Source: a virus
Length of the DNA: 26,918 nucleotides
Reading direction: 5' to 3' (one strand)
IMG/VR virus record: IMGVR_UViG_3300032323_001205
Location: 1 to 26,918 of that record
The position numbers and the translations under genes were made by a program. The notes under the pieces are model-generated. The model was not told where the DNA came from. It saw nothing but the letters and a program-made list of their open reading frames with translations, and ran no database searches. This document shows positions 4,712-9,448 of the stretch, in pieces; positions within the stretch are counted from its first letter, which is position 1, and each line of letters opens with the position of its first letter.

Positions 4712-4740
4712 TTGTCAATAAATCAATACAGTGATACAAT
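4712..4740 (+). promoter_or_regulatory. Promoter of structured RNA copy A
   Basis: The -35 box TTGTCA (4712-4717) and -10 box TACAAT (4735-4740) are 17 bases apart. The sequence after -35 (ATAAATC) matches the promoter family seen between 12309 and 17969. Predicted start is near 4747, 14 bases before the closing helix of the RNA. Confidence 0.8.
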
Positions 4741-4746
4741 ACGTGT

Positions 4747-4926
4747 ATTGAAAGATTAAAAGGTTAGTCACATCAATACACCATTTATTTGAACTGATAG
4801 AATGTATGGTAGTTATTGGAGTCTACGGACGTTGAAGGTAACTATTGAAATGCACCTATCGCAATAGGAGTGATGGCCCTATTCAAAAAGCAGTCAACAA
4901 CTAACCTGTTTGTATTCTAGGATGAT
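4747..4926 (+). ncRNA. Structured RNA family, copy A
   Basis: A non-coding transcript is predicted between a promoter and two convergent minus-strand genes. AGGTTAG (4761-4767) pairs with CTAACCT (4901-4907), closing a 147-base domain. AATAGG (4863-4868) pairs with CCTATT (4878-4883) around the 9-base loop AGTGATGGC. AGTTA (4811-4815) can pair with TAACT (4839-4843). The conserved strings GGTAACTATTGAAATG (4837-4852) and AAGCAGTCAACAAC (4888-4901), plus a 3' tail to 4926, recur in copy B at 5806-5990. The two main helices differ in sequence between copies but keep pairing. No known RNA family is recognised. Confidence 0.8.
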
Positions 4927-4931
4927 ATATA

Positions 4932-5072
4932 TTAAACCCTCTCTACAGCATTTTGATTAGTGTTCTTAGAAATTTTAGGTATATATCTCATTTCCTTATT
5001 CCATAATGACCAACATTGTTCCCAGTCGGATGATTTGATTATAGTCATAGGAGTAGAGATTATATTATTCAT
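4932..5072 (-). CDS. Small hypothetical protein (46 aa), coupled to the oxygenase-like gene
   Basis: On the minus strand an ATG at 5072 overlaps the TAA of the upstream gene in a TAATG arrangement, the usual sign of translational coupling. The 46-codon frame ends at TAA 4934-4932. The product contains DWEQCWSLWNKEMRYIPK, rich in Trp, with no membrane segment or family I know. An internal ATG at 5048 is a possible alternative start. The gene converges on structured RNA copy A, ending about 6 bases from its 3' tail. Confidence 0.65.
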   Translation of the reverse strand: MNNIISTPMTIIKSSDWEQCWSLWNKEMRYIPKISKNTNQNAVERV

Positions 5073-5698
5073 TAATTATAAATTATATAGTTTTTATATT
5101 TTTCAAAACTTCTTTCTAGTAAGTCTTGATGTTTTTTTTCATCTAGCGGGCCTGCAAAAAACATTGTAATCTTTTTAAATTTTTTTGGAGCAAGAAAAGA
5201 TCCGTGAAAACCTTTGTGATTATTCAACGCAAACCAATTAGTATCTTCAGGTAATATAGGAAATACTGGATTAAATTCAAATCTAGATCGAGAATCGTAT
5301 TGAACCACATTTGGATTACTAGAATTTGGCAATACATAAAATGTTTCCAAAACATCTCTCATTACAAGATTTTTATATGATGTAGGTCCTATTATATTGC
5401 CCACTATATTTTTTGAAATAGGATCTTGATGAGGTTTATTGTATAAAATCTGTTCTCTAAAATCAATGTGTAATTTATTATCAAAATCCTCAAATGGCAG
5501 CATACGAACAATTTTTTCAAGATTGGGAAAAATTTCACGCAAATCAGAATCTATAGGTTGATTATATTTTTTAAATTCAACCCAGTCCCAATCCTGATGC
5601 CTAGTTTTTCGATCATTAAAATATTCGAGAACTTGATTTCTATCCAAATTGAGTCTAGGAATATCAATTGGTAAAAAGATGATGTTGTCCAGATTCAT
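5072..5698 (-). CDS. Putative 2-oxoglutarate/Fe(II)-dependent oxygenase
   Basis: The 208-residue protein has the layout of a small 2OG-Fe(II) oxygenase. A HxD iron pair is seen as PHQD (H90, D92), a distal histidine in GFHGS (H165), and a basic residue about ten positions later (K175/K176) that could bind 2-oxoglutarate. Around them are predicted beta strands (NWFALNN, ITMFFAG). The likely start is ATG 5698; the frame can be extended 16 codons to a TTG at 5746, but that overlaps the RNA B promoter and has no ribosome binding site. The gene lies alone with its 46-codon partner on the minus strand, between the two RNA copies. Substrate unknown; the family call rests on few motifs. Confidence 0.5.
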   Translation of the reverse strand: MNLDNIIFLPIDIPRLNLDRNQVLEYFNDRKTRHQDWDWVEFKKYNQPIDSDLREIFPNLEKIVRMLPFEDFDNKLHIDFREQILYNKPHQDPISKNIVGNIIGPTSYKNLVMRDVLETFYVLPNSSNPNVVQYDSRSRFEFNPVFPILPEDTNWFALNNHKGFHGSFLAPKKFKKITMFFAGPLDEKKHQDLLERSFEKYKNYIIYN

Positions 5699-5739
5699 AT
5701 ATTTATTTAATCTTTTGGAAAACAAACTTAAAAAAGTTG

Positions 5740-5768
5740 TTGACAAGTTGATTCAATTAGTATATAAT
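5740..5768 (+). promoter_or_regulatory. Promoter of structured RNA copy B and the DUF2828 gene
   Basis: A perfect -35 TTGACA (5740-5745) and perfect -10 TATAAT (5763-5768) are 17 bases apart. The predicted start is near 5775. No other good promoter is seen before 6320, so this one probably drives both the RNA and the protein. Confidence 0.85.
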
Positions 5769-5774
5769 TAACAC

Positions 5775-6319
5775 ATAGTAAGCAGAGATGCTTGTAGAGA
5801 GTTTTAGGATCGGTACAGCAACATTCATATTATTATGGATCGCTGGTCACCATGGTAGTTAACTGGAGCAGAGTGCGTAAAACCACCGAGTGTTGAAAGG
5901 TAACTATTGAAATGGCCCAGCAAACTCAGAGTGATGGCCTGAGTAAAATAAAAGCAGTCAACAACGATCCTGTTTGTATTCTAGGATGATTACAGCAAAT
6001 TAAACATTAAATCTGAACTAACTGCTATAGAAGATGGTCGCAGGACACCGTAGAAATACTGTTCTAGGAAACTAGACATTGAAGGAATAGACGACACATT
6101 GGAAAGACTTTGTATGTTGCTAGTAGCAGACACAATTACTAGATAGTCAACATGAATTGTTGATAGGGTCAAGGTAACTGAACCGATATACAGGGGAAAG
6201 GCTGACCAGAAAATAAAAACACCAGTTACGCTCATCCTGCTAGAGACATAGAATGTTAACAGCAAATTTAAATTTCAACCAATAACTGAAAAAAACACAT
6301 TCTGATAAAGGAAAAGAAA
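5775..6319 (+). ncRNA. Structured RNA family copy B plus long structured leader of the DUF2828 gene
   Basis: AGGATCG (5806-5812) pairs with CGATCCT (5965-5971). ACTCAG (5924-5929) pairs with CTGAGT (5939-5944) around the loop AGTGATGGC, as in copy A. AGTTA (5857-5861) can pair with TAACT (5901-5905). The conserved 3' tail runs to 5990. Beyond it, 5991-6300 has no gene but folds locally: TCTAG-GAAA-CTAGA (6063-6076), TCAAC/GTTGA (6147-6163) and GTAACTG/CAGTTAC (6174-6229). No terminator separates RNA and gene, so the RNA may be processed from, or act within, a ~545-base 5' untranslated region. Confidence 0.75.
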
Positions 6320-7735
6320 ATGAACGCATTTGTAAACGCAGTAGCAAATCAAGAAGCCCGTACTGCCAATGGCATGAAGGCTCGTAAGTCAACCGCTAAC
6401 TCAGTGGTTGATCTGTTCTACAACATCGGTGCAAGCCGTGGTAAGAACATTATCCCAGCATTCACTGCGGCTTATGTGCAAGACAAGGACCTCGCACTGC
6501 GTGTGGCTTTGTGGGCACGTGATGCACGTGGTGGTGCAGGCGAACGACAACTGTTCCGTGATATCTTGTCATACTTGGAAAAGCATGACCCAGAAGCGGC
6601 AGCACGTTTGCTAGTTAAGATTCCTGAAGTAGGTCGTTTCGATGACTTGTTTGTCTTTAAGGACAAGGATCTTAAGGCTAAGGCATATACTTTGCTAGGT
6701 GAAAACCTTCGTGCAAAGAATGGCTTGGCAGCTAAGTGGACTCCTCGTAAGGGCGAAGTTGCACGTGAAATCCGCGAATTCTTCGGAATGACTCCTAAGC
6801 AATATCGTAAGCAACTTGTGTCAATGACTAAGGTTGTTGAAACACAAATGTGTGCGAATGATTGGGATAATATCAACTACTCACATGTGCCTTCACAGGC
6901 ATCACGAATCTATAAGAAGGCGTTCAACCGTCATTCTACTACATTCGCTGAATATGTGGCTAAGTTGGTGAGTGGTGACAAGACTGTGAAGGTCAATGCT
7001 TCGGCAGTGTTCCCTCATGAAGTCTTGAAGGGTATGATTTCCCCGTACGGCCGTGCTAACTTGGGTAAGACTGAGTTGGATCACGTAACCGCACAATGGG
7101 ACGCATTGCCTAACTACATGAACGATGCAAACATTCTACCATTGGTAGACGTATCTGGTTCTATGTCTTGCCCAGCAGGCGGAACTGGTTCTGTAACATG
7201 TTTGGACGTTGCTGTTTCGCTTGGTCTATACCTAGCTGACAAGAACAAGGGTGCGTTCAAGGACACATTCTTGACTTTCAGTGGTACCCCTGAACTACTT
7301 ACTCTGAAGGGTGATATCGTTCAGAAGATTAACCAAATGGTTCAATCTAAGTGGGCAATGGACACTAACTTGCACAAGGCTATGGACAAGATCCTAAGTG
7401 TTGCAGTCAAGAACTCTGTTCCTGAAAGCGATATGCCTAAGATGTTGTTGATCCTTTCTGACATGCAGTTTAATCAATGTGTAACCCACGATGATTCTGC
7501 AATGGAAATGATCCAACGCAAGTATGAAGCAGCCGGCTACACTGCGCCTAGCGTAGTGTTCTGGAACTTGAACAGTAAGGGCAATGCTCCTGTCAAGTCA
7601 GACAATAGTGGTGCGGCTCTAGTCTCTGGCTTTAGCCCAAGCATCATGGCAAGTTTGCTAGGTGCTGATCCTTCTGAATTCACCCCAGAAGGCGTAATGC
7701 TAAAGACAATTATGAACTATCGTTACGCATGTTAA
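6320..7735 (+). CDS. DUF2828 / von Willebrand A domain protein (Ro60-like architecture)
   Basis: The 471-residue protein has an alpha-helical N-terminal domain (about 1-260) and a C-terminal von Willebrand factor A domain. Landmarks of the N-terminal domain are ALWARDARGGAGERQLFRDIL (64-84) and IPEVGRFDDLF (101-111), typical of DUF2828. The vWA metal site is complete: D277-x-S279-x-S281, T349 and D381. A helical repeat followed by a vWA domain is the layout of TROVE/Ro60 proteins, which bind misfolded and Y RNAs; direct kinship is inferred. The start has a good AAAGGA site 7 bases before ATG. The gene is preceded by the structured RNA leader (5775-6319) and followed by a strong terminator, so it forms its own unit. 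Confidence 0.8.
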   Translation: MNAFVNAVANQEARTANGMKARKSTANSVVDLFYNIGASRGKNIIPAFTAAYVQDKDLALRVALWARDARGGAGERQLFRDILSYLEKHDPEAAARLLVKIPEVGRFDDLFVFKDKDLKAKAYTLLGENLRAKNGLAAKWTPRKGEVAREIREFFGMTPKQYRKQLVSMTKVVETQMCANDWDNINYSHVPSQASRIYKKAFNRHSTTFAEYVAKLVSGDKTVKVNASAVFPHEVLKGMISPYGRANLGKTELDHVTAQWDALPNYMNDANILPLVDVSGSMSCPAGGTGSVTCLDVAVSLGLYLADKNKGAFKDTFLTFSGTPELLTLKGDIVQKINQMVQSKWAMDTNLHKAMDKILSVAVKNSVPESDMPKMLLILSDMQFNQCVTHDDSAMEMIQRKYEAAGYTAPSVVFWNLNSKGNAPVKSDNSGAALVSGFSPSIMASLLGADPSEFTPEGVMLKTIMNYRYAC

Positions 7736-7845: not shown

Positions 7846-8316
7846 ATGTGGATTGAAAACGTAGCCGCCGCAGATATACCTACTAGGTTTCATCACGAAG
7901 CCGGCGAGAATAGTATGCTGATTAGCATTGTTGACCCAGGTAGTTGGAGACCAACACCTGCTCACAAGTTCAAAGAGATTCACAATTTTGAATTCTTAGA
8001 CGTAGAAAAGAATGATGTGGTTCTTGATGAGGCAATGCGTTGCAGTCAAGAACAAGCAAACGAATTGGTAAGACTATTGCAACATGCCAAAGACAATAGA
8101 ATGAATGTTGTTGTTCATTGCTTTGCAGGTATCTGTCGCAGTGGTGCAGTTTGTGAAGTAGGTGTTATGATGGGGTTTGATGACACTGGTAGGTTTCGCA
8201 GTCCAAACTTATTGGTCAAGCATCGTATGATGAAGGCATTAGGTTGGACATATGACGAAGATGAAAAGCCAAACGTTGATAACTGGAGAACGTTTAAACT
8301 AGGATGGGAAAGATGA
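7846..8316 (+). CDS. Dual-specificity/tyrosine-phosphatase-like protein
   Basis: The 156-residue protein contains the cysteine phosphatase loop HCFAGICRSG (91-100), with nucleophile C92 and phosphate-binding R98 in CX5R. The order (N-terminal strands, acidic segment, P-loop, helical end) fits small phage dual-specificity phosphatases. An additional cysteine, C97, lies inside the loop and could be redox active. AAGGAG precedes ATG 7846 at a normal distance. The stop overlaps the next start (ATGA), so it leads a four-gene operon ending at 9475. The target may be a phosphoprotein or RNA 5' phosphate; this is not shown by the sequence. Confidence 0.8.
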   Translation: MWIENVAAADIPTRFHHEAGENSMLISIVDPGSWRPTPAHKFKEIHNFEFLDVEKNDVVLDEAMRCSQEQANELVRLLQHAKDNRMNVVVHCFAGICRSGAVCEVGVMMGFDDTGRFRSPNLLVKHRMMKALGWTYDEDEKPNVDNWRTFKLGWER

Positions 8317-8630: not shown

Positions 8631-8846
8631 ATGTATAAAATAAAGGAACTAGAATTTACAGACTTGCTATCAGCAATGGATTATGCTAAGTCACTGAATG
8701 AGTTTGTATCTATCGTGGGTCCAAACTTTGAAGTATGTGGTATGTTCGGTGTTGATAGTGTAACTGACGGCAAGTGCCCAGATGGCATTGCGTATGACTG
8801 GAACAAAGAAAGCCGAATAGGTAGAGTAAAGAAAGAGAGGGTATAA
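8631..8846 (+). CDS. Small hypothetical protein (71 aa)
   Basis: ATG 8631 follows AAAGGA with 5-6 bases between. The product has a helix (DLLSAMDYAKSLN), a strand pair (EFVSIVGPNFEVCGMFGVDSV) and a basic end (RIGRVKKERV), suggesting a compact domain. Its TAA overlaps the next start codon by one base. Third gene of the operon; function unknown. Confidence 0.7.
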   Translation: MYKIKELEFTDLLSAMDYAKSLNEFVSIVGPNFEVCGMFGVDSVTDGKCPDGIAYDWNKESRIGRVKKERV

Positions 8847-9448
8847 TGCCTGCAACCTTTTTAACAAGTGACACCCACTTTGGTCATGCCGGAGTGTGTA
8901 AGTTTACAGAAGCAGACGGAGTCACAAAGATTCGTCCATGGACTGATCCAGATGAAATGGATGAGGAAATGATTAAACGTTGGAATGCAACGGTACGCCC
9001 TAACGATAAAGTTTATCACTTAGGTGATGTAGTTATCAATCGTAAGGCATTAAAGACGTTAGCACGATTAAACGGTGATAAAGTCTTGATTCGTGGCAAC
9101 CATGATATCTTCTGTGATGATGAATATAGAACTTACTTCCGTGAATTACGTGCATATCATGTAATGAACGGAATGATATTAAGTCATATCCCGTTACATG
9201 AAGCAAGTTTAGGTAGATTTGGCGTCAACATTCATGGTCACTTACATACTAGTAGAGTGAAAAAGGCTAGGGGAATTGACGCTAAGACAGGTGCAACATT
9301 ATACAGCATAGAAAACGATGTCCGTTATCATTGCGTATGTGTTGAACAAACTGATTTTACTCCTATCTTATTCGAGGATGTTATCAAACGAATCGAGGCA
9401 GAAGGTGGAACAGTTGGTATGCGAAGTGGGAACGGACCCACAATGTAA
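8846..9448 (+). CDS. Calcineurin-like metallophosphoesterase
   Basis: The 200-residue protein carries all blocks of the family: D9-x-H11 (SDTHFGH), GD61 (HLGDV), GNHD 84-87, H114 (SHIP) and GHLH 131-134. Together they form the two-metal site. Phage relatives are phosphodiesterases or phosphatases of nucleotides or nucleic acids; the substrate here is not evident. The start codon overlaps the upstream stop (TAATG) after a GAGGG site. The gene is last in the operon and is followed immediately by a terminator that overlaps its stop codon. Confidence 0.88.
   Translation: MPATFLTSDTHFGHAGVCKFTEADGVTKIRPWTDPDEMDEEMIKRWNATVRPNDKVYHLGDVVINRKALKTLARLNGDKVLIRGNHDIFCDDEYRTYFRELRAYHVMNGMILSHIPLHEASLGRFGVNIHGHLHTSRVKKARGIDAKTGATLYSIENDVRYHCVCVEQTDFTPILFEDVIKRIEAEGGTVGMRSGNGPTM

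Follow-up and report, generated by a model that had tools for sequence, protein, structure and literature searches.

A constant stem-and-motif module in an RNA array beside a phage Ro60-like gene: candidate Y-RNA-like partners

Ro60 and Y RNAs form a partnership that is known in animals and bacteria. YrlA RNA (RF02553) adjoins a Ro60/Rsr gene and is closed by a terminal stem that is formed from both ends and conserved by pairing. For Listeria phage CKA15, the published report describes three very abundant, unannotated transcripts less than 2 kilobases (kb) upstream of an Rsr-like gene, which its authors proposed to be Y RNAs, and it also cites mycobacteriophage Y RNAs (PMC12282133). The Class I RNAs of dictyostelid amoebae have a 6-base-pair covarying terminal stem with an unpaired conserved motif of 11 nucleotides (nt) adjoining its 5' strand; the rest of the molecule varies (PMC7919456). 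Here, we describe an array of four RNA modules (RNA1-A, RNA1-B, RNA2 and a leader hairpin) upstream of a Ro60-like gene, homologous to that of CKA15, in a viral genome of 90.9 kb (IMG/VR virus record IMGVR_UViG_3300032323_001205). The window is the whole stretch analysed, positions 1 to 26,918 of that record.

A constant terminal module around interchangeable interiors

The array consists of a constant terminal module, a 7-base-pair stem with two nucleotides and ACAGCAA, around interchangeable interiors, and it is tied to the Ro60-like gene. The common signature comprises the 7-nt 5' strand of the terminal stem (P1), 2 nt, ACAGCAA and, 25-400 nt downstream, the exact complement of that strand. 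Its exact form is confined to three sites in the whole genome (5806, 5983 and 6250), and copy A (RNA1-A) carries ACATCAA instead. The original prediction had proposed two copies of one RNA family. This holds for A and B, which share the same fold about 1 kb apart and whose quoted loops and helices were all located, but the number of modules is four, and what all four have in common is the terminal stem and ACAGCAA only. The conserved 3' tail of about 20 bases turned out not to belong to the RNA: from 5983, with AGGATGA-TT-ACAGCAA, it opens the following module, of which A keeps a remnant only. The last module ends 16 nt 5' of the Ro-like start codon, adjoining the Shine-Dalgarno sequence AAAGGA.

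As the comparison set, we used 80 viral contigs with a Ro-like gene. Where more than 600 nt of upstream sequence was available, one to five modules were present at every homologous locus (65 of 65), and a module ended within 40 nt of the Ro-like start codon in 64 of 70 loci. Of the 289 motifs in the orientation of the gene, 189 had a stem at the 2-nt spacing (other spacings, 0-22), compared with 1 of the 56 in the opposite orientation. Modules are between about 40 and 300 nt long. In 207 distinct modules, P1 takes 64 different sequences, and each of stem positions 3-7 shows all four Watson-Crick types; the scan behind these counts requires pairing and fixes G both at position 2 and after the stem, so that these columns are not independent evidence, and its strand control gave 206 versus 2. 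The association with the gene also appeared in a scan of IMG/VR for AGAATGT-NN-ACAGCAA in which no protein was used. Among the matches listed, 78 sites lay in newly fetched stretches, 25 of which had ACATTCT downstream; 22 of the 78 stretches encode a Ro-like protein, and all 22 fall within the 25 stem-bearing ones (hypergeometric p = 1.6e-16). Two further contigs (L183 and L204) contain modules of 188-189 nt with stem and motif in fetched stretches without a Ro-like gene; these contigs may be truncated.

The interior of RNA2 is kept in related loci and differs from that of RNA1; RNA2 is deleted in one of these loci (L032). The leader-module stem is replaced by TGAATGC/GCATTCA in L050-L052. 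In L066, an extra open reading frame (ORF) lies between RNA2 and the Ro-like gene, which starts about 870 nt after RNA1.

RNA1 was found upstream of the Ro-like gene in about 30 of the 80 contigs. Our alignment contains 25 sequences and 21 pairs in four helices; P2, the upper half of P4, and P5 were omitted from the pair count for their shifted registers, though they covary by eye. Pairing was kept in 99.2% of cells, compared with 85.7 ± 0.9 in shuffles, and 66 cells were changed on both sides (shuffles, 15.9 ± 3.9), involving 11 of the 21 pairs. Controls with slid partners paired in only 16-42%. The paired helix changes, originally read as the mark of a functional structured RNA, are thereby extended to covariation over many contigs. 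Single-sequence folding is weak (z-scores of -0.6 for A and -2.1 for B); such minimum free energy scores are uninformative, and the case therefore rests on comparison. This weak folding, together with the short distance between A and B, is what chance similarity or a recent functionless duplication could appeal to, an explanation refuted by the covariation, the exact 2-nt spacing, the strand bias and the protein-blind association, and left with a negligible probability.

That no known family is represented was confirmed, as neither A nor B matched Rfam even at E ≤ 10. We also considered a group I intron or homing element, for which Rfam gives no support. A BLASTN search of isolated phages with copy A returned no useful match, and the exact loop pattern gave 26 matches in IMG/VR, two of them real and most others chance matches in coding sequence. 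The covariation and the lack of an Rfam match support a functional structured RNA family outside Rfam.

Table 1. Features of the RNA array and its neighbourhood (window coordinates)
Feature	Position	Strand	Details	Basis or family
Sigma70-like promoter, copy A	4712..4740	+	TTGTCA-17-TACAAT, TG before -10	Consensus match only, 10/12
RNA1-A (copy A)	4761..4907	+	P1 AGGTTAG (4761-4767)/CTAACCT (4901-4907); motif TC-ACATCAA, 1 base from consensus; P3 GATAG/CTATC; P4 TAGTTA/TAACTA; P5 GTC/GAC; P6 AATAGG/CCTATT, loop AGTGATGGC; linker AAGCAGTCAACAAC	Sequence and comparison
Remnant of RNA2 start, 3' of copy A	4908..4935	+	GTTTGTATTCTAGGATGAT...	
ORF between A and B	5072..5746	-	224 amino acids	No Pfam/PHROG family
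Sigma70 promoter, copy B	5740..5768	+	TTGACA-17-TATAAT	Consensus, 12/12
RNA1-B (copy B)	5806..5971	+	About 166 nt; P1 AGGATCG (5806-5812)/CGATCCT (5965-5971), then GT-ACAGCAA; P2 ATTCAT/ATGGAT; P3 GCTGG/CCAGC; P4; P5; P6 ACTCAG/CTGAGT, loop AGTGATGGC	Sequence and comparison
RNA2	5983..6238	+	256 nt; P1 AGGATGA/TCATCCT, TT-ACAGCAA	
Leader (5' untranslated region) module	6250..6303	+	54-nt hairpin; P1 AGAATGT/ACATTCT, TA-ACAGCAA	
Ro60-like RNA-binding protein	6320..7735	+	471 amino acids; helical-repeat part and vWA	Pfam DUF2828 and DUF7788; phrog_850 'RNA-binding protein'
Dual-specificity-phosphatase-like protein	7846..8316	+	Homologues in 62/80 Ro-like loci	
Metallophosphoesterase	8846..9448	+	Homologues in 59/80 Ro-like loci; three isolated phages also have it close to the gene	phrog_547

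The Ro60-like protein and its predicted partners

The gene that follows the leader module is predicted to encode a protein of the Ro60 fold. By sequence, we found no significant match among solved structures, solved Ro60 included, and no Pfam TROVE domain, only DUF2828 and DUF7788. We modeled the protein with AlphaFold from 15 phage homologues, and the five top matches of the model in the PDB with Foldseek were all Ro60/TROVE proteins (E = 1.2e-6 to 1.9e-4); no structure of another kind matched at E < 0.001. They include Ro60 of Thermus phage phiLo, on whose structure our literature search found no paper; parallel work may exist. The modeled protein shares fold and domain order (helical repeats and vWA) with Ro60/Rsr/TROVE proteins but belongs by sequence to DUF2828/DUF7788 rather than TROVE. 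Its relatives occur in 676 isolated-phage records, and mycobacteriophage annotations name the homologue "Ro-like". Bacterial genomes scanned with the Ro-like alignment gave a single match, a Rickettsiales contig (metagenome-assembled genome) that also carries a 57-nt module.

Modules stand near the Ro-like gene in Synechococcus phage ZZ01, Cronobacter phage S13, Citrobacter phage Ci1, Stenotrophomonas phage DLP6, Rhizobium phage I1_18 and Vibrio phage BUCT194, as well as in the Felix-type phage TP1, Campylobacter phage CPX, Klebsiella phage KP13-26, Listeria phage List-36 (three modules upstream of the same gene) and Mycobacterium phage LeBron. Aeromonas phage LAh_9 has eight modules upstream of the gene. 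For Enterococcus phage VRE9, Fusobacterium phage KSUM and Bacillus phage 136, the stretches read contained no module.

We consider all four RNAs of the array to be Y-RNA-like partners of the phage's own Ro60-like protein, with a probability of roughly 0.8. They are placed with Y-RNA-type partners, and not taken as a stand-alone RNA of no recognised kind, because the array adjoins a Ro60-like gene. The Ro-like protein would grip the terminal stem and motif, and the interior, which in many phages is a tRNA mimic of YrlA type and here the RNA1 or RNA2 fold, might serve as a second module that gates the RNA-binding cavity or docks the protein to another factor in infection. A plausible role would be surveillance, repair or protection of tRNA and other RNA near the phage tRNA cluster. 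The leader module is probably an autoregulatory site of the Ro-like gene, where free protein would bind the 54-nt module at the Shine-Dalgarno site and damp its own synthesis.

At most loci the last module directly adjoins the Shine-Dalgarno sequence, and the array lies upstream of the gene in the same orientation; both facts could also be read as pointing to cis-acting leader elements of the Ro-like operon only, with no separate RNA products. We regard this as very unlikely. The consensus promoter of copy B ends, with its -10 element, 38 nt upstream of the B stem; several phages have modules downstream of the gene or at kilobase distances; and abundant transcripts occupy the equivalent place in phage CKA15 (PMC12282133). 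The promoter of 17-nt spacing predicted for each copy matches the consensus fully for B and imperfectly for A, and the region holds no more promoter-like sites than its shuffles do. Transcript support for the window RNAs comes only by homology, via CKA15. Both phages have candidate Y RNAs upstream of homologous Rsr-like genes; as far as the available part of the report goes, those of CKA15 come with no motif, structure or family, and the signature and its spread are supplied by the present work (PMC12282133).

Several observations weigh against Y-RNA-like partners. For this phage, the partner RNAs and their binding are predictions, and the protein model is of moderate quality (predicted local distance difference test score, pLDDT, of 64). 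In the phages KVP40, Ochrobactrum OC and Serratia BF, modules lie kilobases from the Ro-like gene. The YrlA model had no match in the phage's own genome and none at E ≤ 10 in the array, and ARAGORN on doubled interiors found no tRNA-like part in the window modules, RNA1 and RNA2 included. Elsewhere, YrlA and Class I matches are all below the Rfam curated cut-offs, and control genomes too match weakly. CAGCAA is missing from the stem consensus of YrlA, and therefore the protein-binding part differs from that of known Y RNAs. The window RNAs resemble Y RNAs in their layout but are not assigned to YrlA because neither the YrlA model nor a tRNA-like module was found in them.

In the literature searched, we found no earlier description of a motif-defined, phage-wide Y-RNA-like variant with new interiors. 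Since mycobacteriophage Y RNAs are already cited in the CKA15 report (PMC12282133), the kind is known, and the novelty lies in the motif-defined phage-wide variant. It constitutes a large, previously unnamed phage RNA family reaching KVP40, Felix-type phages and LeBron, whose signature names likely partners, in phages of many hosts, of a Ro60-like protein present in hundreds of sequenced phages without an established partner or role. The Ro60/Y RNA system would thereby extend to a large viral reservoir, with leader autoregulation as a prediction.

tRNA mimics and more distant RNA relatives

In several modules of 103-135 nt, the parts of a tRNA body are permuted (T arm, capped acceptor, D arm), an order found in many related modules and in YrlA, the consensus of which also has a CUA cap. 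Eighteen modules have a T arm that pairs; the acceptor stem is mostly capped by 3-8 nt and has no mature 3' end, e.g., CGCCACC-CTA-GGTGGTG in LeBron, ACTCGGC-AGAT-GTCGAGT in Felix-type TP1 and ATTTGGC-TTCAGT-GCCAGAT in L059. The YrlA model matched modules of LeBron and KP13-26 over its full length (E = 7.5e-9, 1.2e-8 and 1.9e-6), below the curated 69 bits. The phage stem of 7 base pairs with NN and ACAGCAA differs from the longer, bulged YrlA stem, and the window RNAs have other interiors.

Such capped tRNA mimics are common, modules lie among phage tRNA genes (in the tRNA-rich regions of KVP40, Ochrobactrum OC, Serratia BF and S13), and some short modules carry hairpins like anticodon stem-loops, e.g., TTTGA-CTTTTAA-TCAAA. 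The RNAs might accordingly be decoys that sequester anticodon nucleases of the host, or other enzymes that bind tRNA, and that the Ro-like protein stabilises; competition of YrlA with an anticodon nuclease has been proposed (PMC7790460). RNA1, RNA2 and many short interiors lack any tRNA feature, and we hold this view to be possible but rather doubtful. It is compatible with Y-RNA-like partners, since a Y-like RNA could act as a decoy among other things. Hairpins resembling the anticodon stem-loops of Lys UUU, Ser GCU, Arg UCU and Met CAU were seen in short modules of L123 (2390-2519) and L125 (2626-2688 and 2937-2987).

In phages S13, Ci1, LAh_9, BUCT194 and KVP40, stem and motif are inserted in inverted order into otherwise ordinary tRNA genes, and a related insert occurs in ZZ01 tRNAs. 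Interrupted genes of this kind (in L115, L116, L117, L123, L125 and L255, the last being KVP40) are often annotated as pseudo or odd tRNAs, an oddity that the module would explain; they may be Ro-gated tRNA mimics, or else tRNA inserts of a new type. Since the opposite order appears inside unpermuted tRNA genes, and RtcB or an RNA ligase is encoded nearby in some phages, stem and motif could instead be an RNA-processing or splicing signal that directs the joining or circularisation of permuted and interrupted tRNAs, for which the Ro-like protein would be a cofactor. We rank this below a binding site because the acceptor stems of most permuted cases are capped and have no mature 3' end. Moreover, the permuted and inserted forms place their parts alike in space, so that a binding site accounts for either, and non-tRNA interiors are common; splicing is thus an unlikely explanation. 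Y-RNA-like partners remain our preferred reading.

Class I matches (RF01414) fall on short modules of many phages (best E = 1.9e-5), all below the gathering threshold of 41.5 bits, and 8 of 14 control genomes also match weakly. The likeness extends to a short covarying terminal stem, the motif CCUUACAGCAA by its 5' strand, a variable interior, a length of about 55-60 nt and a 3' CUG (PMC7919456). The features proper to Class I, a 6-base-pair stem starting with G, the 11-nt motif CCUUACAGCAA and a 3' UG, are shared with short modules, and the LAh_9 module at 2872-2926 holds CCTTACAGCAA exactly. By contrast, Class I RNAs are eukaryotic, their known partner is a protein with an RNA recognition motif, and the likeness rests on scores below cut-off. 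It may reflect descent or convergence and offers a lead on the unexplained Dictyostelium RNAs. Only tentatively, and against the odds, might phage Ro-like proteins, YrlA-type tRNA mimics and Class I RNAs belong to one ancient ribonucleoprotein superfamily defined by a short terminal stem and (A)CAGCAA; an amoebal protein of the Ro60/DUF2828 type would then bind Class I RNAs, and phages would reuse the module as an interchangeable handle on RNA1, RNA2, tRNA mimics and real tRNA genes.

Neighbouring genes

The ORF between A and B has no homologue in any of the 80 related loci and is therefore probably a late insertion outside the system. Downstream of the Ro-like gene, the phosphatase-like gene and the metallophosphoesterase are possible accessories for RNA-end processing. 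An S-adenosylmethionine decarboxylase-like gene (phrog_3125) lies at 2127-2573 of the window, inside a cluster of ten tRNA genes.
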